Source: a virus. Taken from it: a stretch of DNA of 47,134 nucleotides. This document shows, one piece after another, positions 490 through 35,334 of this stretch. Location: IMG/VR virus record IMGVR_UViG_3300017605_000338, positions 1-47,134 of that record. The stretch is one strand, 5' to 3'. How positions within the stretch are numbered: position 1 is the first letter of the stretch; every line of letters starts with the position of its first letter. A program made the position numbers and the translations under genes. The notes under the pieces were generated by a model, which did not search any database, was not told the origin of the DNA, and saw only the letters and a program-made list of their open reading frames with translations.

Positions 490-879
490 ATGCCGGACTT
501 CAAGCCGACGGGCACTTGCTTTGATGACGCGCTCGATTTCTTCTGCCGGGTCGCACCGGATAAGCGTCATGTTCACCGACTCGTGCACGCGATCTGCCAG
601 GCGCCGGGCGATATAACCACGCGTGCGCCGGGCGAGCTATTCGCGCACGCATGGGTCGAGGCTGCACTCGCGACCGGCACGTTCTGCATTGAGGGTGTGA
701 TCGCGGATGGCGTGCGAGCCTATCGAATGATCCCGATACTGCAGTTGTACGATCGGTTTATCGTCGTCGAGACAGCGCGCTACACGTTCGCCGAGGCAGA
801 CGCGGAGAATGAGCGTCACAACACGTTCGGCCCATGGATTCCGCGCTATCTCTCGCTCGCGAAGCCGAGGCCCGCATGA
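490..879 (+). CDS. Conserved phage/plasmid protein of unknown function
   Basis: A 129-residue protein with a Cys near the N-terminus (TGTCFDDALDFF), a central HAWVE motif, and a late NTFGPW motif. I recognise this general layout from small proteins found often on phages and plasmids but cannot assign a function. A conserved Cys followed by His-Ala-Trp could suggest a cysteine-peptidase-like fold; this is speculation. Its stop overlaps the recombinase start (ATGA at 876-879), so the two are co-translated. Confidence 0.7.
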   Translation: MPDFKPTGTCFDDALDFFCRVAPDKRHVHRLVHAICQAPGDITTRAPGELFAHAWVEAALATGTFCIEGVIADGVRAYRMIPILQLYDRFIVVETARYTFAEADAENERHNTFGPWIPRYLSLAKPRPA

Positions 880-1835
880 CCACAGCGATCACACAGGCGC
901 GGCCTGCGCAGCTTGCCCTATTCGCCGAGCGCGCTCGCAACTACGAGCGCGCCTCACGCTCGAAGCGTACGCTCGCCGAGTACGCTCGGCAGTGGCGCCT
1001 TTTCTGTGTGTGGTGCGAGGCGCGCGAGCTCGAGGCGATGCCCTGCCCTGCCGAGACGCTCGCGCAGTGGCTGACCGAGAGGGCGCACGAGGTCAGTATC
1101 AGCACGCTCTCGGTCGCACTCTCGGCGATTGCTTGGATCCATACCAATAGCGGGAACGTCACGCCGACGAGTGATCCACGCATCAAGCGGCTGTGGGAAG
1201 GCATCCGCCGCACGCATGGGCAGCCACAGCGGCAGGTCTCGCCGCTGACCTCTGTCGAGCTGCGAAGCGTGTGCACTGCCCTGCCCGACTCGCCGATCGG
1301 CGTGCGTGATCGCGTGATCTTGACTCTCGGCATGGGTGGCGCGCTGCGCCGGTCCGAGCTCGCAGCGCTCGAGGTGCGCGACGTCGAGCGCACGAAAGCC
1401 GGCCTCGTGGTGCTGATCCGTCGCAGCAAAACGGACCAGCATGGCAAAGGCCAGCGCGTAGGCATCGCACGCGGGCGTAATCGGCACACGTGCCCGATGC
1501 GCGCGCTCGAGGCCTGGCTCGAGCTGTCCGGCTTGAAACGCGGTCGGCTGCTGCGCCGGATGTCGCGCAGCGGTCGAGTGCTCGAGGCCGGCCTGCGCGG
1601 CGCAGCGATCGCCGAGGTCGTCAAGCGCAGTGTCGAGCGCGTCGGCCTCGAGTCCGCTCGATACTCCGGGCACTCGCTACGGTCAGGCCTCGCGACGTCG
1701 GCTGCAGCGGCGGGCAAAACGGACCGAGCGATCATGCAGCAAGGTCGATGGCGAGGGCGCGAGATGGTCGACCGATACGTGCGCGACGCTCGCCTACTCG
1801 ATGAGGCGAACGCGAGCAAAGGGATCGGCCTGTGA
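876..1835 (+). CDS. Tyrosine recombinase (integrase or dimer resolvase)
   Basis: 319 residues with an N-terminal SAM-like core-binding domain (about 20-110) and a C-terminal catalytic domain. Catalytic residues are visible: Arg in LRRSEL (158/159), Lys185 (RRSKTD), His266 and Arg269 (GHSLRSG), Trp292 in the H/W position (GRWRG) and nucleophile Tyr301 (DRYVRD). I chose the ATG at 876 because it overlaps the upstream stop as ATGA; an in-frame ATG at 834 lies inside the upstream gene. The family does site-specific recombination through a 3'-phosphotyrosine link. Given the ParA and Rep genes, a Cre-like role in resolving plasmid dimers is as likely as integration; no tRNA-derived attP was seen. 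Confidence 0.92.
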   Translation: MTTAITQARPAQLALFAERARNYERASRSKRTLAEYARQWRLFCVWCEARELEAMPCPAETLAQWLTERAHEVSISTLSVALSAIAWIHTNSGNVTPTSDPRIKRLWEGIRRTHGQPQRQVSPLTSVELRSVCTALPDSPIGVRDRVILTLGMGGALRRSELAALEVRDVERTKAGLVVLIRRSKTDQHGKGQRVGIARGRNRHTCPMRALEAWLELSGLKRGRLLRRMSRSGRVLEAGLRGAAIAEVVKRSVERVGLESARYSGHSLRSGLATSAAAAGKTDRAIMQQGRWRGREMVDRYVRDARLLDEANASKGIGL

Positions 1836-4700: not shown

Positions 4701-4952
4701 ATGGCGATCGTTCGGTACTCGGCGGACGGCCTCCCATGGGGGGTCTACGAGGTCACGTATTACAGGCTGTTTAGCGACGGGCGACTCGTCGCCGTGTCGA
4801 GTGATCACGACGTGACGGCGGCCTACGCCGAAAGCATGGCGGGTCAGGTCGTCGGCAACCAAGCCTTACAGGCGGTGTGCCGGTCGCAGCCGGGCGGCCT
4901 GTGGGCGTACGGCAGCGCGGCGGTCGAGCGAGCGGCGGCGAGCGATGCGTAA
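4701..4952 (+). CDS. Small hypothetical protein leading the partition operon
   Basis: 83 residues with strand-rich sequence (YEVTYYRLFSDGRLVAVSS) and a good Shine-Dalgarno. Its 3' end overlaps the ParA start by eight bases. No domain is recognised. It is co-transcribed with the partition genes. Confidence 0.65.
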   Translation: MAIVRYSADGLPWGVYEVTYYRLFSDGRLVAVSSDHDVTAAYAESMAGQVVGNQALQAVCRSQPGGLWAYGSAAVERAAASDA

Positions 4953-5697
4953 GCGAGCCTGGATTGTCGCTGTGGTCGGCGCGAAGGGCGGCGTCGGCAA
5001 GTCTACAACGGCGATCTCTCTCGCCGTCGAGTGGCATCGCATAGGCCTCGCCGTGCTGATCGTCGATGCCGATCCGCAGGGTACGCTGCGCACGTGGTTT
5101 GACGTGCGGACGGAGCGCGCCGAGCACGATGAGCGGCTGCAGGTCGTCCACCTGGACAGCGCGCCGTCGGGTCGGCGGGCCTCGCGGCAGTCGAGCGACG
5201 AGCAGACAGCCGCGCTTATTCGGCGCGTCGTGCCGACGCTCGCCGAGGGTTTCGACGTCTGCCTGCTCGATACGCCTCCGTCGAATGCGGACGTGCAGCA
5301 GGCGGCGATCGCGATCGCCGATCAGGCGGTGCTGCCGACGGGCCCGCATGCCGCCGATCTGTGGGGGCTCGTGCCCATGCTCGAGCTCGTGCGCCTCGAG
5401 CAGCGCTCGAAGCGGCCTGCGCTGATCGCGTCGGTGTTGCGTAACAAGGTCGATCGGCAAACGGTCGCGGCGCGTGACGCTGACGAGGCGCTCGCAGAGT
5501 CCGAGTTGCCGCTGCTCGCGGCGCAGCTTGGCGCGCGCGAGGATTTCGGCCGGGCAACGTCGGCCGGCCTCGGCGTGACGACCTATCGGAATTGGGGACT
5601 CGCTGCGACGGAGGTGCGGGATCTCGCGCTCGAGCTCGAAGCGGTCTCGGGCGGCGGCATCCCGGCAATGGACCAGAAACGGAGGAAACGGGCATGA
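4945..5697 (+). CDS. parA: ParA-family partition ATPase
   Basis: 250 residues. It has a deviant Walker A box (GAKGGVGKSTT, residues 12-22), Walker A' (VDADPQGT, 40-47) and a Walker B region around LLDTPPSNAD. No N-terminal HTH is present, so this is the small type Ib ParA, in which DNA binding and autoregulation are done by a small partner. The protein would move plasmid copies over the nucleoid before division. It is directly followed by the RHH-type partner (ATGA overlap). Phages that carry such a gene (P1, N15) live as plasmid prophages. Confidence 0.93.
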   Translation: MRKRAWIVAVVGAKGGVGKSTTAISLAVEWHRIGLAVLIVDADPQGTLRTWFDVRTERAEHDERLQVVHLDSAPSGRRASRQSSDEQTAALIRRVVPTLAEGFDVCLLDTPPSNADVQQAAIAIADQAVLPTGPHAADLWGLVPMLELVRLEQRSKRPALIASVLRNKVDRQTVAARDADEALAESELPLLAAQLGAREDFGRATSAGLGVTTYRNWGLAATEVRDLALELEAVSGGGIPAMDQKRRKRA

Positions 5698-26956: not shown

Positions 26957-28180
26957 CTACTCGCGCGAAACGGTGAGCTTGGTGCGCCATGCAGGCGGCG
27001 CGAACTTGGTCGGCTCGCCGCCGTCTACTCGGTGCTGCCCTGATAGGATCGCGCGCACATCGACGGTCGCTGCCGGCGCAGGCCCGAGCACGCTGCGCCG
27101 CACGTCGTCGGCGTTTACTCCGCGCTTCGGTGGCTGCTGATCGAGCGCCTCGAGCGCGCCGTCGAGCCGAGCGTCGATGTATGCGTCTGGTTCCTTCGCG
27201 AAGTCTGCGCCGGGTTTCAGCTTGGCGAGCGCCTTCAGCTTGATCTCTCGAGGCGCGAGGCCGTCGAGCTTGGCCTCGGCGCCGAGCACAGGTCGCACGC
27301 GATCGAGCAGCGCCATGCGCGAGCGCACAGAGGCCTCGAAACGCTCGGGATCGGATGCCTCTGCGAGCTTCGCTTTCGAGGCGTCGAGCTCGCCGCGCAG
27401 AGCGTCGTGTCGCTGCTGTAGCGCCGTGAGCTGTGCAGTCTGCTCGGCGAGTTTGGTGTCGCGCTGCTCGAGCGTGCGTTGCACGATCTGTGCTGCGCTC
27501 GGCGTGACCTGCGCCTCGAGTCCGTCGAGTCGGATCGTGACTAGTTCCATATGTCGTCCTTTGCTGTCGTCGTCGTCGTCGCGCAGCACAGCGTGTGCAG
27601 CGTCATTGGGGAGCGCGTGATCGTCGGCGCTGCCGTCGAGGCGCAGCGCGACCTCGGAACCAGCGCGGCCCCATTTCTGCGGCCCTAGACCGACATGGTT
27701 GTATGTAATTGAGGTCTGCTCGGCGTCGTACTTCTCGCCGTTGTAGACGCCGGGCTTGTCTACGAGCACGCAGCTGTAACCGCAGCTGACCTCGCGTCGA
27801 TCGCCGGCCTCGATGGCCTTGATCATGCGGGCGTCTGTGATGACGAGCTCGGCCTCGACGTAGCGCCCAGCGTCGGCGCGCGCGCTCGTGCCCGAGACGT
27901 GCCCGACGGAGAGCGCCTTGGCATTCGAGGCCGTGACCATTTCCCGCGGATGCAGGTCAGTCACAGGCGCGTCGGCGAGCGTCGCAACGGACTCGGCAGC
28001 GAATACGTGCTCGGGCCGGCGCAGCTCGCGCACTACGGTTCCGTCGGCTCGCCGGTAGACGAGCACACCGGTCCGAGTGACTCGGGCAGGCGCGCGCAAA
28101 AAACCCTGCGGAGTGCGCCGCGTGTTGCCGAGCTTGGCAGCGTCGTATCGTGTGACCTGCACGGCGGCCACTACAGTCAC
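26957..28180 (-). CDS. Prohead protease with scaffold tail (DUF2213)
   Basis: 407 residues starting at GTG. The N-terminal half is a DUF2213 protease: EVSCGYSCVLVDKPG, a His in TSITYNHVGLGPQKWGRAGS and a Ser shortly after, consistent with a His-Ser herpesvirus-type active site. Residues about 200-300 are a coiled coil (QIVQRTLEQRDTKLAEQTAQ onward), typical of a fused scaffold. It would cut scaffold and itself during head maturation. Confidence 0.8.
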   Translation of the reverse strand: MTVVAAVQVTRYDAAKLGNTRRTPQGFLRAPARVTRTGVLVYRRADGTVVRELRRPEHVFAAESVATLADAPVTDLHPREMVTASNAKALSVGHVSGTSARADAGRYVEAELVITDARMIKAIEAGDRREVSCGYSCVLVDKPGVYNGEKYDAEQTSITYNHVGLGPQKWGRAGSEVALRLDGSADDHALPNDAAHAVLRDDDDDSKGRHMELVTIRLDGLEAQVTPSAAQIVQRTLEQRDTKLAEQTAQLTALQQRHDALRGELDASKAKLAEASDPERFEASVRSRMALLDRVRPVLGAEAKLDGLAPREIKLKALAKLKPGADFAKEPDAYIDARLDGALEALDQQPPKRGVNADDVRRSVLGPAPAATVDVRAILSGQHRVDGGEPTKFAPPAWRTKLTVSRE

Positions 28181-28512: not shown

Positions 28513-28920
28513 ATGGCGCATTGGATCCTGAGTGAGGGTGACGAGCCGTATACGGTCGTCGATGTAGAGGCAGACAACGGCGACCAGGCGGTCGAGCTCG
28601 CGCTTGCGATGGCGATCGCGCGCGTCGATGTCGAGGTGCAAGCGTACGGCAGCCGCTCGACGCGTCTGCTCGAGGTCTCCGCTGTGTGCGAGCAGACCGG
28701 GCAGAGTGGTCGAGCCTACGTCGAGGTCCCGCCGCAGGCGCCGCCGTGCAAGCCTTGGGGCTCGGCGCATGCATGGCTGCCCTACGCCGCGCAGGGTGGC
28801 GTGCGGCTCGAGCTGTGCCAGCGCTGCCGCTGCGCGCTCGCTACAATCGAGAGCGCTCGAGGGCCCGACGGGCGCACATACAAGCGGGTCGACTACACGC
28901 TGCTAGACGAGCTCTCTTAG
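28513..28920 (+). CDS. Hypothetical protein with possible Cys-rich ribbon
   Basis: 135 residues with a strong ribosome site and its own promoter, the only rightward gene inside the 34-kb leftward block. The N-terminal 70 residues form a small alpha/beta domain (TVVDVEADNGDQAVELALAM). The C-terminal part contains CQRCRC, preceded by two more Cys further back, and a basic end. Position and independent promoter suggest it is expressed in the prophage, so it could be a moron. No family recognised. Confidence 0.7.
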   Translation: MAHWILSEGDEPYTVVDVEADNGDQAVELALAMAIARVDVEVQAYGSRSTRLLEVSAVCEQTGQSGRAYVEVPPQAPPCKPWGSAHAWLPYAAQGGVRLELCQRCRCALATIESARGPDGRTYKRVDYTLLDELS

Positions 28921-29183
28921 ATGATCGGCCAGCCCTGCCAGCGCGGCAGCGGCTGCCCGAGCGCGGCGAAGTGTTCGGCGCGCAGCCGAGCGACCTCGGG
29001 CGTGAACCGCTGCAGCTCGTCCTCGCGCATGCTCGAGCCTGTCACCAGCTCGTAAACGAGCTCGGGCGACGCGTCGCCGTGCTGCGGGTCTGCGAGGTAG
29101 GCCTGCACGACTCGGAGCGCGCCGTCATAGGTCCACGGGTAGAGCGACTCGGCGAGGCGCTGCGCTGTGCTTAGGTCTGCCAT
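28917..29183 (-). CDS. Small hypothetical protein
   Basis: 88 residues from ATG 29183, which overlaps the upstream stop (ATGA). Helical start (STAQRLAESLYPWTYDGALR). Its stop overlaps by four bases the stop of the rightward gene at 28513. No domain recognised; it ends the leftward head-gene segment that starts with TerS. Confidence 0.6.
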   Translation of the reverse strand: MADLSTAQRLAESLYPWTYDGALRVVQAYLADPQHGDASPELVYELVTGSSMREDELQRFTPEVARLRAEHFAALGQPLPRWQGWPII

Positions 29184-29437
29184 CAGAAGCACGTGCTCGC
29201 GAGCATTCCGCGGCCGTTGGCGGCGACCCATTCGCTGCAGGTTCTGGTCTCGCGCGCGCCATCATCATTGCGGATCGTGAGCTCGGCGGCGTTGTAGAGC
29301 TCGACACACGAGGCGCCGGGATCGGCTTCGCATCCCATTTGCTCGTGTAGCACTGCGAGCGCGTCGGGCGCAGAGGCAGCGATCACGTGGTGCCGCTCGC
29401 CGTGATCTACGATTGTCCACACATGCAGTGCGCTCAC
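29183..29437 (-). CDS. Small hypothetical protein
   Basis: 84 residues with strand-helix-strand sequence (ALHVWTIVDHGERHHVIAAS, APDALAVLHEQMG) and four Cys. Lies 9 bp after the MuF-fusion gene. Being immediately downstream of a likely toxin-bearing protein, it or its neighbour at 28917 could be a cognate immunity protein; this rests on position only. Confidence 0.55.
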   Translation of the reverse strand: MSALHVWTIVDHGERHHVIAASAPDALAVLHEQMGCEADPGASCVELYNAAELTIRNDDGARETRTCSEWVAANGRGMLASTCF

Positions 29438-29446
29438 AGTGCCCTC

Positions 29447-32044
29447 CTACGGCTTGGCGAATAGGTCGTAGTGATGGCGCTCGAGCAGCGCGTCGCGGTC
29501 GGCGAGCGACTCTGCGAATGCTGCTTGCTGCTCGGCGTCGAGGCCGGGCACGAGGCTCGCGAAGTGCGTGCGCGCCTCGAGCTCGCTGTGAAATGACAGC
29601 GCGGATCGCTTCCAGGCATGCGAGGCCTCGACAAGCGCGTCTGTAACCTGACCTGGACTCCATGCAGTTGCATCGCGTAGCGCATGCTGCGTCGCCGCGA
29701 TGTAAACGTCAAACGGCCTCGAGCGCACTACCGAAAAACTGCCGCGCAGGTCGCCGGGCTTGCCTCGAAAGCCAGGCATCGCGAGAGGGTGTCGGTCGCG
29801 CAGATGTCGAGGCAGGCCGGCGAGCTCGGCCGTCACGTCGCGCGCAGCGATCTCCGTTGTTAGTTCGGAGAGCAGAAACCGAGTGCCGCTCGTGCCGTGG
29901 AACTCGAGCGCGGGCCCGAACGCGTGCGCCTCCTCGTGCACGAGCGTCGCGAGCGCCCGCAGCTCGTTGTCGGTCGGCACTTGGCGCAGCGATAGCGCCT
30001 CGGCTGCATGGGTGAGCTCGACGGCAGTGTCGACGGCCATGCGCAGCGCGCCGCTGTGCTCGTTGCGTGTCGCAGCGATGCCGCTCGCAGCGTCGGCAGC
30101 CGTCGGCTCGAAGGTGCGGATCGCATTCGAGGTCGCGGTCGCAGCGCGGCCTGCTCGCTGGTATCCGATGTCGTCGAGCATGCCCTGCACAGGCGCGCGC
30201 ACGAGGCTGCCCTCGATCGGGCCCTTGGCAACGCCTAGGCCGATATCCTCTACGCCGCGTGCGAGGTCGGCAGCGATGCGCTGCCGGTCCGGTATTCTCG
30301 CCGGCCTCGAGCTCGGCACGTCGGGCGGTGCGGGTCGCGGTACGCGAACGATCAGCTCGGATATCGGGCCCGAGCTCGGCGGCGCTGTTGCCGTGGTGAG
30401 GGTGTAGTTCGGCCCTCGAGTGATCGTCGGCGCGCCGAGCGGCCTGCCCGAGCTCGGCAGCGGCGCAGGCGCTCGAGCGGGCCCGCCGACGGCCTCGGCA
30501 GCGCGCGAGCTCGGCGACCTCGGCAGCGGCGCGCCTGGGGCAGTCGGCAGCGACGAGCGGATCGGCGGCGGCGGCGGGATGCCCGGCAGCGAGGCCTGCT
30601 GCGGTCGCGCAGGCCGGGTCGGGCGCGCGTATGGGCTATCAGGCGGCGGCCTGATCGTCGCCGGATCGATGACCGGCAGCGCGACGCATCGGCACGCGTA
30701 GTAGTGGGTGTCGTAACCTGGGTGAGCTCTCTTGCCTGTCTTGGGATTGACGACAGGCGGCGAGTCCCATGCTTGCCGCGTGCCCTCGAGCGCGCGATGT
30801 CCAGGCCTGACCTTGACGTCGCCTGCGGTGTGCCAGTCGTAGTGTGTGATCCCGAGCGCCTCTTGACGGACCTTGGTTGTCTCGGCGTGAAATTTCCCGA
30901 CGGCATCGTTCGCGATGATCACGGCCTGTTGTTCCGAGATGCCATCGACGGACTTTAGAAGCTTCGCGGCGAGCGCGTCGGGTCGCAGACCTTGCTCGAG
31001 GCCGTGCCGCACAGCGGCCTGCGCGGCGCTGTAGGTCGCGTCGGTCATGTCGCGGACGCGGATAGTCTGCGCGCGCACGAACTTGTCGAGGTGCTCGCCG
31101 AGGCCGGCCTCGACGTCGAACACGTTGATCGCGACGAGTGGGTCAGAGTCTGGCGGGCCGTCGAGGCGCTGCAGCTGCTCGAGCTGCAGCGTGTAGCGCG
31201 GCACGCGAAACGCTGCGGCGATCTGGCGCTCGAGCTCGGCGCGACCGTAGTCGAGCGTCCGCAGGCCTGCGCGCACGATGTCGGCGCGAATGTCGTAGCG
31301 CAGCGCTGCTCGAGCTCGAGCGAATGCCGCTGCGAGCACGTCGTCGCTCGAGTCGCGGCGAGCAGAGGCGACCTCGGGCGGCTGCACGTTCGCGTGCACG
31401 TAGTCGAGCGCGCCCGGGTCGAGCGGCGTCACGACACGCACACCGCGTCGCCCGAGCTCGTAAAGGATGCCGTCGAGCAGCGTGCCCTGCGCCCGCCACA
31501 TAGCGCGCTGCTCGGTCGTGAGCGGCTCGCGCGCCTCGGGCAGGATGACCAGCGCGTCGACTGGTCTGCCCGGGCTCTCGTCCAGAGCCTTACGCAACGC
31601 ACGCACGATCGACACGCCCTCGAAGATGCCGCCGCCGTCGGCTGCGAGTATCTCGTGCGCGAGCCTCGAGCTTGCCTCGGACCAGCCGAGGGCGATCAGG
31701 TCGTCGGCATGCCGCACAGGCAATGCGAGCTTCCAGCCCAGCCCTAGCGCGAGCGTTGTCTTGCCTGCTCGAGGCCCGCCGACAATCGCGACTCGCATCG
31801 GCGCAGCGTCGCGTCGAGGCGCAGCCGCTCGAGCCGCAGCCGCTCGAGCGGCGACGAGTGTCGGCAGCTCGGGCAGGACATGCTGCGAGATGGTCTCGCG
31901 CACTCGTTTGCCTACGCCGAGCAGCGCGGCGAGGTAGCCGATCAACGGCAGCCGCGGAAACTCTGCCGGCCTCGAGATGACCGGCGATATCGCAGCGTCG
32001 ATGCGCACAACGCGTCGGCGAGCGGCGAGGGCTGCGAGCGTCAT
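29447..32044 (-). CDS. MuF minor head protein with inserted P-loop kinase-like domain and C-terminal zincin-like domain
   Basis: 865 residues from ATG 32044, overlapping the portal stop (ATGA). Residues 1-82 are the start of a phage Mu gpF/SPP1 gp7 head protein. Residues 83-208 are an inserted P-loop domain: Walker A GGPRAGKTT (89-97), acidic HADD (112-115), then EGVSIVRALRK and a Walker-B-like VDALVILPE. MuF sequence resumes at about 230 and ends with its signature (HYDWHTAGDVKVRPGHRALE, PGYDTHYYACRCVALPVID, 401-460). A Pro-rich linker (about 460-590) leads to a C-terminal domain with HEEAH (703-707) and Glu in SELTTE (727-731), the layout of a zinc metallopeptidase. MuF proteins enter the virion, so both extra domains could be delivered to the host. 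Enzymatic activity is inferred. Confidence 0.82.
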   Translation of the reverse strand: MTLAALAARRRVVRIDAAISPVISRPAEFPRLPLIGYLAALLGVGKRVRETISQHVLPELPTLVAARAAAARAAAPRRDAAPMRVAIVGGPRAGKTTLALGLGWKLALPVRHADDLIALGWSEASSRLAHEILAADGGGIFEGVSIVRALRKALDESPGRPVDALVILPEAREPLTTEQRAMWRAQGTLLDGILYELGRRGVRVVTPLDPGALDYVHANVQPPEVASARRDSSDDVLAAAFARARAALRYDIRADIVRAGLRTLDYGRAELERQIAAAFRVPRYTLQLEQLQRLDGPPDSDPLVAINVFDVEAGLGEHLDKFVRAQTIRVRDMTDATYSAAQAAVRHGLEQGLRPDALAAKLLKSVDGISEQQAVIIANDAVGKFHAETTKVRQEALGITHYDWHTAGDVKVRPGHRALEGTRQAWDSPPVVNPKTGKRAHPGYDTHYYACRCVALPVIDPATIRPPPDSPYARPTRPARPQQASLPGIPPPPPIRSSLPTAPGAPLPRSPSSRAAEAVGGPARAPAPLPSSGRPLGAPTITRGPNYTLTTATAPPSSGPISELIVRVPRPAPPDVPSSRPARIPDRQRIAADLARGVEDIGLGVAKGPIEGSLVRAPVQGMLDDIGYQRAGRAATATSNAIRTFEPTAADAASGIAATRNEHSGALRMAVDTAVELTHAAEALSLRQVPTDNELRALATLVHEEAHAFGPALEFHGTSGTRFLLSELTTEIAARDVTAELAGLPRHLRDRHPLAMPGFRGKPGDLRGSFSVVRSRPFDVYIAATQHALRDATAWSPGQVTDALVEASHAWKRSALSFHSELEARTHFASLVPGLDAEQQAAFAESLADRDALLERHHYDLFAKP

Positions 32045-33489
32045 GCGTCGTAACGCGGTGGCACTGCAGGCGGCGCAGGCGGCACGGCAGGCGGCTCCGG
32101 CTCCGGATTCGGCTCGGGCTCCGGCTCGGGGTTGGCGAGGCGCTCGAGCTCGTAACGCAGTGCGACCTCGCGACTCTCGACGTCGAGCTCGTCTAAATCG
32201 CCGCACTTCGCGAGGTGTAGCGCGGCCTCCTCGGGCTGGATGATCCGAGCGTTTGCCAGCGTAGCGAGCGCGTCGCTCGTGATCTTGAGAGTCTCGGCTT
32301 TTTCCTTCGCCGTCGGTTGCCACAGCGGCGGATAGGTGACCTCGAATTCATCGACGATCACGCCTTTCGTCGGCCCTCCGTCGATGGCCATCACACAGCG
32401 CACGAGCTTATCGATCTGCGGCGTGAGCCGCTGCGCGCGCTCCGTCGCTACCTTGTCGTACCAGGCTCGAGTGTCGCTCTCGCCGGTCGCATTGAGTCCG
32501 GCGGGGCTGCGTCCAAACAACACTGTAACGGGCGTCTCAGCAGCGGACGCAACGCGCATCATAAAGCGATCGAGCAACTCGGGCACACCGGTAAACGGTG
32601 TCGGCGTGCGCTCGAAAGTCTCGCGCTCATCGATCAGCAGCGAGCGGCAAACGCTGCGACCCAGATCCATCAGCCGGATCCGCTGCCGCAGCTTTTCCTC
32701 GCCGGCGCTGGTCAGCAGCTGCATAAAGTTGTTGATCTTCAATACGCCTTGCGACGCGTCTGTCATGAGGTGCGCTGCGCTCATCCACGACGACGACGAC
32801 GCCTGCACGGCTTGGTACACACGCTGTAATACCGAGTCGTCCCATTGACTCGCAGACTGCAGGCCCCATCGCGACGTCGGCGCGCCTCGAAACGCTAGGA
32901 GGCGCGACTCGTGCACGATGTAGTCGATCGTCTTGTTCGTCGAGGTCTGCCGGTTCGCCGAACCACGGGGCAGCGTCGGCGTCGATATGCGATAGGTCTC
33001 GACGCGACCGTAGTTCGGCGCTGCGATGTCCTCATAGTATGACTCTTGCTGCAGCTGCGGGCGGCGGATGACAGTCAGGTGCGAGAGCGAGCGCACAGCG
33101 CCGAGCTCGAGCGGCTCATTGAGCGGCAGGCCGTCATTGACGCCGAGCAGCACAGCGCCGAATCCGTAGAGGCGCGCCCATATCCAGGCCTCGCGCAGCG
33201 CGGCATCGGCGCCGAGCGCGTTGAGTAGCTTTTCGATCTGCTTGGCGCTGCTCGACGCGTCTACCATCGAGTCGGCCGGCAGCGAGACGCCGAATCCAGC
33301 GCGCAGCGCGTCGCCGGGCAGCTGCTCGATAATCCGAGCGCATATGTCGTCGTCGGTGTGCAGCGCCTCGAGCGCGCTATCGGGCAGCTGCGACGACATG
33401 CGCGGGACGTGCGCGCGCAGCTTGTCTCGGAGCGTGCCGAGGCCGGTGATCGCGTTTTCCCAACTGTCGAGCCGCAGGTCGAGTGCCAT
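32041..33489 (-). CDS. Portal protein (DUF1073)
   Basis: 482 residues. The features ICARIIEQLPGDALRAGFGV, AWIWARLYGFGAVLLGVNDG, PVTVLFGRSPAGLNATGESD and YDKVATERAQRLTPQIDKLV are those of DUF1073-type portals. The last 40 residues are Pro/Glu repeats (PEPEPEPNPEPEP), probably flexible. It is the dodecameric DNA channel; the next gene is the MuF minor head protein, as in SPP1 and Mu. Confidence 0.9.
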   Translation of the reverse strand: MALDLRLDSWENAITGLGTLRDKLRAHVPRMSSQLPDSALEALHTDDDICARIIEQLPGDALRAGFGVSLPADSMVDASSSAKQIEKLLNALGADAALREAWIWARLYGFGAVLLGVNDGLPLNEPLELGAVRSLSHLTVIRRPQLQQESYYEDIAAPNYGRVETYRISTPTLPRGSANRQTSTNKTIDYIVHESRLLAFRGAPTSRWGLQSASQWDDSVLQRVYQAVQASSSSWMSAAHLMTDASQGVLKINNFMQLLTSAGEEKLRQRIRLMDLGRSVCRSLLIDERETFERTPTPFTGVPELLDRFMMRVASAAETPVTVLFGRSPAGLNATGESDTRAWYDKVATERAQRLTPQIDKLVRCVMAIDGGPTKGVIVDEFEVTYPPLWQPTAKEKAETLKITSDALATLANARIIQPEEAALHLAKCGDLDELDVESREVALRYELERLANPEPEPEPNPEPEPPAVPPAPPAVPPRYDA

Positions 33490-33864: not shown

Positions 33865-35334
33865 TCAGAGGTCGCTGAGCGCGTCGAGGCCGGCGAGATA
33901 GTCGCCGAATCCGCCTGCGAGGCACCACCTTAGCGCCTGGGTCTGCGCGTCCACTCGATCGTTCGCGACTCCACGGGGGAAACGTTTGTGCTCGATGACC
34001 CAATCGAGGATCCACGGCTCGAGCGATGGGTCAGGTAACCAGACATTGCCGGCAGCGAAGATCGGTTGCGTCGCGTAGGCTCGCGCGATTTTGGAGCCGT
34101 CGGGCAGAATCGCGATGATGCCCGGGATCTGTGATTTGAGCGTCTCGATTACCGCAGGCCCGTTCGCCTTATCCTCGATCAGGATCGCGTTTGCCTCGGG
34201 GAAACGAGCGTAAAGCGTGCGCACGGCAGCGATAGTGCCGATAAAATCGAGGTGTTCTCGGACCTCGGCGAGCAGGTAGAAGTCGGGCGGCTTGAATGCC
34301 CACACCTGACCGGCGACATACGAGGCCGTCTCGTGCGACTTGAATGCGCAGTCAAAACTGATCACGACGAGCGCGCCCTCGAGTCGCGGGCGCGTCTTGT
34401 AATACTTGTGCATCCACTCGTCGTGATAGATCGCGCCGCCTGCCGGAACCGGGTCCTGTTGATCCTGCGCTGCCCACCCATCCGGACCAAATTCAGCTTT
34501 GCGCCGGTCTACTTCGGCATCGTTCCATCGCGCCTCGCACAGCAGCTCGCCCTCGCGCGTGCGTGGGTCCACCCATCCGAGCGGCGTCGGCGCTCGAGCG
34601 GCTGCGCTGTAGTATCGCATCGGCATCGACAGGACCGCGTAACCCTGCTCGGCTGCCTGCCCTGCGAGGTCGCGGTCGACAAGCCTCTGCATGATGATCG
34701 TGCGCGTGTTATTTCCCGGCAAAACACGGGACGCCATTGTTTCAAACCACCAGCGCTCGCAGCGCTCGAGCGCGCTCGGCGAGTGCGCCTCGAGCGGTTT
34801 GATCGGGTCGTCCACCACTTGCCGATGCGCGTGAAAACCAGTCGGAGAGCCTCCGACGGATATCGCTTGGCGGATGCCGCCTTTGTCGTTCTGCAACCAA
34901 TTTGCCAGCCAGCGACCGCGCTGCGGCGTCCAGACGTCGCCGAATAGATCGCGGTACCATTCGCCCTCGAATAGGCTGCGGCAGCGCAGCGAGTCACGCA
35001 CAGCGAGCGTGTCGGCATAGGCGCCGAATTGCCACTGCGTGCCCGGGGACCAGGACCATTCCCAAGTCGGCCACATGACGCAAACGGTCGTCGATTTGCT
35101 CGAGCCGGGCGGCACGTTGATCACGAGCCGAGGCAGCTGCCCTCGCGACTGCGCCTCGAGATGCTCGCACAGCGCGCCCACGTGCCAATTGTCGACAAAT
35201 GGCGCGTTAGGCACGACAATCGGCCACGCCGCACGAATGTACTCGTGCAGCGTAGCGGGTCGTCGTGCGCGTCGCGTCGCTCGCCGTGCGTGCTCTGAGA
35301 TCAGAGCGGCGAGCTTGTTTTTAGGGTGTGCCAC
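33865..35334 (-). CDS. terL: Terminase large subunit
   Basis: 489 residues starting at GTG. ATPase domain: Walker A VPPGSSKST (74-82) and HRQVVDDPIK as a probable Walker B. Nuclease domain: VVISFDCAFK, ILIEDKANGP and NDRVDAQTQAL supply the three acidic clusters of an RNase H fold. It translocates and cuts DNA at the portal. A circularly permuted map would suggest headful packaging. Its start overlaps the small upstream gene by 14 bases. Confidence 0.94.
   Translation of the reverse strand: MAHPKNKLAALISEHARRATRRARRPATLHEYIRAAWPIVVPNAPFVDNWHVGALCEHLEAQSRGQLPRLVINVPPGSSKSTTVCVMWPTWEWSWSPGTQWQFGAYADTLAVRDSLRCRSLFEGEWYRDLFGDVWTPQRGRWLANWLQNDKGGIRQAISVGGSPTGFHAHRQVVDDPIKPLEAHSPSALERCERWWFETMASRVLPGNNTRTIIMQRLVDRDLAGQAAEQGYAVLSMPMRYYSAAARAPTPLGWVDPRTREGELLCEARWNDAEVDRRKAEFGPDGWAAQDQQDPVPAGGAIYHDEWMHKYYKTRPRLEGALVVISFDCAFKSHETASYVAGQVWAFKPPDFYLLAEVREHLDFIGTIAAVRTLYARFPEANAILIEDKANGPAVIETLKSQIPGIIAILPDGSKIARAYATQPIFAAGNVWLPDPSLEPWILDWVIEHKRFPRGVANDRVDAQTQALRWCLAGGFGDYLAGLDALSDL

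Follow-up and report, generated by a model that had tools for sequence, protein, structure and literature searches.

A predicted gluzincin-type zinc metallopeptidase domain on the MuF protein of an uncultured phage, with a linked companion gene

Gene layout around the MuF gene

The window analysed in the present study is the whole of a 47-kb IMG/VR virus record (IMGVR_UViG_3300017605_000338; 47,134 nucleotides), whose source is an uncultured, probably temperate phage; a temperate lifestyle is suggested by the presence of a tyrosine integrase gene. The head module, which also contains the major capsid protein gene, is encoded on the minus strand, and the MuF gene lies between the portal and head protease genes. 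The DUF2213 head-maturation protease encoded downstream is a separate assembly protease. The genes relevant to this study are as follows:

834-1835, plus strand: tyrosine integrase (Pfam PF00589, E=1.1e-11)
33865-35334, minus strand: large terminase of the head module
32041-33489, minus strand: portal protein, directly upstream of the MuF gene (Pfam PF06381, E=4.1e-80)
29450-32044, minus strand: MuF minor head protein, 865 aa (stop codon 29447-29449)
29183-29437, minus strand: small gene, 84 aa, with a GTG start and GGAGG upstream of the start
28917-29183, minus strand: companion small gene, 88 aa, candidate immunity or inhibitor gene (family A), conserved behind the zincin-MuF gene
26957-28180, minus strand: DUF2213 head-maturation protease (Pfam PF09979, E=1.6e-40; phrog_530, E=3.7e-85)

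Both small genes, with starts at 29437 and 29183, are located where an earlier reading of the window from its letters alone (hereafter the sequence-only reading) had placed them. The ATG of the MuF gene at 32044 overlaps the stop codon of the portal gene (ATGA), the 88-aa gene begins with an ATG that overlaps the stop codon of the preceding gene (TGATG), and GGAGG precedes the 84-aa gene, so that these genes look translationally coupled. Directly past the companion gene, a 135-aa gene without a Pfam match is encoded on the opposite strand (28513-28920, plus strand) and is kept in L001 and L002, two near relatives of the window phage; at its start it is similar to the 84-aa gene, and the two are possibly paralogues. 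In addition to the integrase, the phage encodes a ParA/MinD-type ATPase (4945-5697, plus strand) with a possible role in partition.

The MuF protein itself is composed of several regions, and the two motifs discussed below lie in the last of them:

31340-31807, minus strand: N-terminal P-loop (nucleotide-kinase-like) domain, residues about 80-235, with the Walker A motif GGPRAGKT
30650-31144, minus strand: MuF domain region, residues about 301-465 (Pfam, PHROG and NCBIfam matches)
30300-30649, minus strand: Pro-rich linker joining the MuF domain to the protease domain, residues about 466-582, recognised from the sequence
29450-30298, minus strand: predicted gluzincin-type zinc metallopeptidase domain, residues about 583-865 (alignment, AlphaFold2 and structural matches)
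29924-29938, minus strand: HEEAH, residues 703-707, two putative zinc ligands and the putative catalytic Glu704
29852-29866, minus strand: ExxTE, E727-E731, with the predicted third zinc ligand E727 and the supporting E731

The MuF domain was recognised by Pfam (PF04233, E=6.9e-11, residues 342-455), by TIGR01641 and by the PHROG head morphogenesis annotation. The Pro-rich linker noticed in the sequence-only reading does precede the C-terminal domain, at residues about 466-580, and is gapped and faster-evolving among relatives. For the P-loop domain, the matches are weak (NCBIfam PRK08118, E=0.001; AAA_18 in the homologue L105) and point to nucleotide-kinase-like P-loop families. This domain and the C-terminal domain had been proposed to form a single injected effector with a kinase-like and a peptidase-like function. 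In the phage loci L126 (2145-2732) and L134 (5716-6093), however, the P-loop has a gene of its own, located between the MuF gene and a gene for a portal-zincin fusion. A free-standing P-loop together with a zincin carried on the portal indicates that the P-loop and protease are separable modules, and the two-function proposal is weakened accordingly.

The C-terminal domain of the MuF protein

HEEAH at residues 703-707 and a later glutamate in SELTTE (726-731), which had been taken for a zincin active site, were both confirmed in the 865-aa protein, E727 lying 20 residues past H707. The chance expectation of an HExxH motif is 0.036 for a protein of such length and composition. Relatives were collected in two ways. 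First, a portal-profile scan of IMG/VR, in which the motif was not used, yielded 80 neighbouring phage loci. Second, domain-profile scans of IMG/VR enlarged the family to about 30 distinct members. The near relatives, L001 and L002, match the window protein in architecture, with C-terminal regions 94% and 84% identical to that of the window, and, these two aside, the about 30 relatives are 17-26% identical to the window domain. Members retrieved with motif-bearing patterns are not independent evidence of motif conservation; the active site is also kept in the eight carriers found without the motif (the window, L001, L002, L017, L025, L033, L054 and L023).

In the 30-sequence alignment (A6), both histidines and the glutamate of HExxH, the later glutamate (E727 in the window) and one alanine are invariant, and T730, E731, an arginine four residues past E731, a tyrosine and an isoleucine are nearly so. 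The spacing from the second histidine to the glutamate is 17-21 residues across the family, and the ExxTE motif has two exceptions among about 30 relatives, namely one ExxTD (in the portal-fused L023) and one ExxNE. Thus, the loss of HExxH that might have been expected of a spurious motif was seen neither in L001 and L002 nor in any zincin-type C-terminal domain reached through the portal gene. This conservation also bears on the idea that the domain is a catalytically dead or purely structural head extension retaining the zincin fold, for which phage Mu provides a parallel, the C-terminal domain of its own MuF protein having been described as an inactive PBECR domain (PMC5512222). Such a role is very unlikely here, as the catalytic residues are all invariant while neighbouring positions vary, and many MuF relatives lack an extension altogether.

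The fold of the domain was predicted using AlphaFold2. With three sequences the model was poor (pLDDT 43.7, pTM 0.31), and with 30 sequences it was confident (pLDDT 84.7, pTM 0.88), showing short strands followed by the HEEAH helix (model residues 110-124) and a glutamate helix (138-159). The C-terminal location proposed in the sequence-only reading was thus borne out, and the extent given there, 29447-30000, proved too short, since the modelled domain covers residues about 583-860 (29450-30298). When the top 1000 chains were re-aligned using VIA, the best 50 rows were all zinc metallopeptidases (M1, M4, M49 and M61; Z 9.2-5.8), nearly all of them gluzincins. M1 aminopeptidases and LTA4H come first at Z 9.2 to 8 (the best row having an rmsd of 4.9 over 188 residues), followed by thermolysin-like M4 enzymes, DPP III and an M61 enzyme. 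The best Foldseek matches in the PDB, collagenase G, vibriolysin, ProA and LasB, are insignificant (E 0.2 or worse). Although the structural Z values are moderate, the uniform match list and the conserved residues give good support to the gluzincin assignment. A first guess from the sequence, an IrrE/ImmA-like assignment, was rejected because its sole support was one IrrE chain (3dti; Foldseek E=4.8).

Taken together, the invariant HExxH, the ExxTE motif, the predicted fold and the metallopeptidase structural matches agree with the proposal of a zincin active site on the MuF C-terminal domain, and they strongly support the prediction that the C-terminal 280 residues are a gluzincin-type zinc metallopeptidase. 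The opposite view, that HEEAH arose by chance in an extension of low complexity and high GC content, could have drawn on the poor three-sequence model; it was rejected as extremely improbable in view of the conservation across ~30 diverged sequences, the confident fold and top structural matches consisting only of metallopeptidases.

By its sequence, the domain is placed outside families M1 and M4. The window domain gave no match in Pfam or NCBIfam at E up to 10, and the full-length relatives gave no M1/M4 profile match in either database at 0.01. Also, no PHROG match, no relative among PDB sequences and no significant match in a BFVD structure search were found. As judged from codon substitution, the zincin core of the window clade is under purifying selection (dN/dS 0.08-0.12); the P-loop domain and the linker have higher ratios, 0.16-0.32 and 0.25-0.39, respectively. 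Within the L017-type group, the ratio of the core (0.25-0.56) exceeds that of the MuF domain (0.10-0.18).

Carriers of the domain and their companion genes

Several carrier architectures were observed. Among the loci of the portal-profile scan, L017 and L025 encode the P-loop-MuF-zincin arrangement, and L033 and L054 encode a MuF-zincin protein without the P-loop; most other MuF proteins are short or bear a different extension, and many have no extension at all. The MuF C-terminus of related phages therefore varies, being a zincin, an ADP-ribosyltransferase-like domain, another domain or absent. The ADP-ribosyltransferase-like case, read from the sequence, is L010 (6383-7855; MW202455, a GenBank environmental phage). 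L067 (2296-3882), with a portal 50% identical to that of the window phage, has a MuF C-terminal domain that looks ParB-like, and L041 (4291-6252) has an apparent intein/Hint insertion directly before the conserved CRC motif of the MuF domain. In L116 (3691-6531), the MuF protein has a GNAT acetyltransferase-like domain (Acetyltransf_7 in Pfam, E=4e-4, below the cut-off) ahead of the zincin.

The zincin carriers as a whole form 10 lineages that are less than 40% identical to each other, one of which consists of portal proteins. The zincin is fused to the portal instead of MuF in L023 (982-4746), L126 (3-2039) and L134 (2571-5396), and, close to its C-terminus, the L023 fusion bears a second domain of a different kind, with HEWGH. 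Outside IMG/VR, tblastn searches with the domain of 50,697 GenBank phages (four versions) and 72,556 plasmids (two versions) returned no relative, a weak plasmid match (H41, E=0.3) being discarded as a short unrelated reading frame without HExxH; a pattern scan with the family profile across 84,980 species, each represented by one genome, returned no cellular or prophage relative.

Both small genes downstream of the MuF gene had been put forward as immunity candidates, and only the second has gained support. L001 and L002 lack the 84-aa gene at the corresponding position, and a scan of IMG/VR with this single protein recovered no relative within its sensitivity, which makes the gene a poor candidate. 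The 88-aa gene, by comparison, is conserved behind the zincin: family A homologues follow the zincin-MuF gene in L001, L002, L017, L025, L101-L103, L105 and L109. In the other zincin lineages, the same place is mostly occupied by a different small ORF belonging to subfamilies B and C, which are homologous to each other (hhalign 91.6%); homology between family A and B/C was not detected by hhalign (probability under 1%).

A companion ORF was found behind 23 of 29 zincin carriers and behind none of 55 other MuF genes. The corresponding Fisher test (p=1.9e-15) overstates the significance because the carriers are related, and a fairer account is given by the presence of a companion in 8 of 10 carrier lineages (the other two having no recognised companion) together with the reciprocal scan, in which family B alone led to five loci, one of them (L143) new to the set, and in every one the companion immediately follows a zincin-MuF gene. 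Moreover, the L054 MuF protein is 52% identical to that of L081, which has neither zincin nor companion, suggesting that the companion tracks the protease there and not the MuF type. Family A was seen in a single carrier lineage and has no detectable homology to B/C, and its own link to the zincin could therefore reflect shared ancestry. We consider that the companion gene probably shields the cell against the protease.

The companion and the carrier arrangement are informative about the main rival to a delivered protease, namely a self-processing peptidase. Such an enzyme would cleave the protein that carries it, for instance within the Pro-rich linker, either while the virion is assembled or once the protein has been delivered, thereby freeing MuF, P-loop or other parts. 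The linker is indeed long and Pro-rich, and the zincin MPTases of phage polyvalent proteins have been proposed to be autoproteolytic, P1 DdrB being processed before packaging (PMC5512222). However, self-processing would leave the zincin-specific downstream companion unexplained; no domain follows the zincin in MuF or in the L126 and L134 portals, so that there is no effector behind it to be released; and the phage already has a separate head-maturation protease. For these reasons, we regard self-processing as unlikely.

Proposed role and comparison with known systems

Herein, we propose that the locus encodes a zinc protease that travels in the virion and reaches the host as part of the MuF protein, and that the companion is its inhibitor in the producing cell, a reading that we consider reasonably probable. 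First, H703 and H707 of HEEAH and E727 of ELTTE would bind zinc, with E704 serving as the general base and E731 in support. Second, the MuF domain would anchor the protein at the portal or head, and the protease would most likely be carried in the virion and enter the host with the DNA, by analogy with other MuF-type proteins. Third, inside the host, the protease would have one or a few host proteins as substrates, and it might be moderately toxic or help infection or lysogeny to become established. Finally, the 88-aa companion (28917-29183), encoded in the same operon, would most likely bind and neutralise the protease in the virion-producing cell.

A related alternative is that the delivered protease is not a toxin and, upon entry, eliminates one particular defence protein or repressor of the host, with the companion as a chaperone or inhibitor that silences it during assembly. 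MuF delivery and a linked companion would fit this account equally well, host proteins may be among the substrates of polyvalent MPTases (PMC5512222), and the faster core of the L017-type group is compatible with a changing target. PADLOC, however, found nothing, and in the window clade the core shows strong conservation and not diversification; this alternative therefore appears rather improbable to us. Returning to the proposed delivered protease and its inhibitor, a broader version, which we put forward only tentatively, is that an uncatalogued family of phage-delivered gluzincins and its own inhibitor immunity families form a two-gene cassette that moves between unrelated MuF and portal proteins of environmental phages and cuts a defined host protein at infection.

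Phages of this type may thus introduce a protease into their bacterial hosts, and the products of the companion genes would be naturally occurring proteins that inhibit a new family of metallopeptidases. With named residues and linked candidate inhibitors, both the host action of virion-borne proteases and the immunity conferred by the downstream ORF are directly testable. To our knowledge, the companions and the portal-fused form of this zincin family have not been described. The new elements of the present study are the gluzincin family, which has no Pfam, NCBIfam or PHROG model and which the profiles of earlier surveys may overlap, its companions and its portal-fused form.

The predicted fold and the HExxH-(16-20 residues)-Glu active site resemble those of clan MA enzymes, that is, M1 aminopeptidases (ERAP1 and LTA4H) and M4 thermolysin-like proteases, from which the domain differs in its low identity (about 7-14%), in having no M1/M4 Pfam match and in lacking the extra domains of M1 enzymes. 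A C-terminal HExxH metallopeptidase on a delivery protein is also a feature of the Tox-MPTase1-5 and PVC-metallopeptidase toxins (Zhang et al. 2012, PMC3482391), although those have other carriers and show no sequence match to the domain through Pfam. The zincin-like MPTase domains of phage polyvalent proteins such as P1 DdrB, of which 12 clades have been described (PMC5512222), likewise place an HExxH zincin on a virion-associated phage protein; as judged from the description of those clades, the present family is set apart by its compact MuF or portal carriers and its linked companion gene.

MuF-delivered toxins have mostly been predicted, and before Bxa only the alarmone synthetases Apk2 were named as characterised (PMC11699363). 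For Bxa and Apk2, downstream immunity genes have been shown experimentally (PMC11699363). The window locus shares with them a MuF carrier, a C-terminal (candidate) toxin and small downstream genes, whereas their toxins are an experimentally proven ADP-ribosyltransferase or (p)ppApp synthetase and the one here is a protease predicted from sequence. MuF-metallopeptidase fusions are already known from the survey of MuF polymorphic toxins by Jamet et al. (2017; PMC5576092), in which a metallopeptidase domain was present in 20% of 191 putative toxins, and these toxins are typical of temperate phages (PMC5576092). Compared with them, the window protein has an added N-terminal P-loop domain, and its protease is outside Pfam, NCBIfam and PHROG models, overlap with the metallopeptidase profiles of that survey being possible. 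In common with them, it combines MuF with a variable C-terminal enzyme in the head/packaging module of a probably temperate phage, followed by a small downstream ORF. The locus appears to be a clear protease version of a MuF toxin, with named putative catalytic residues and linked candidate inhibitors.
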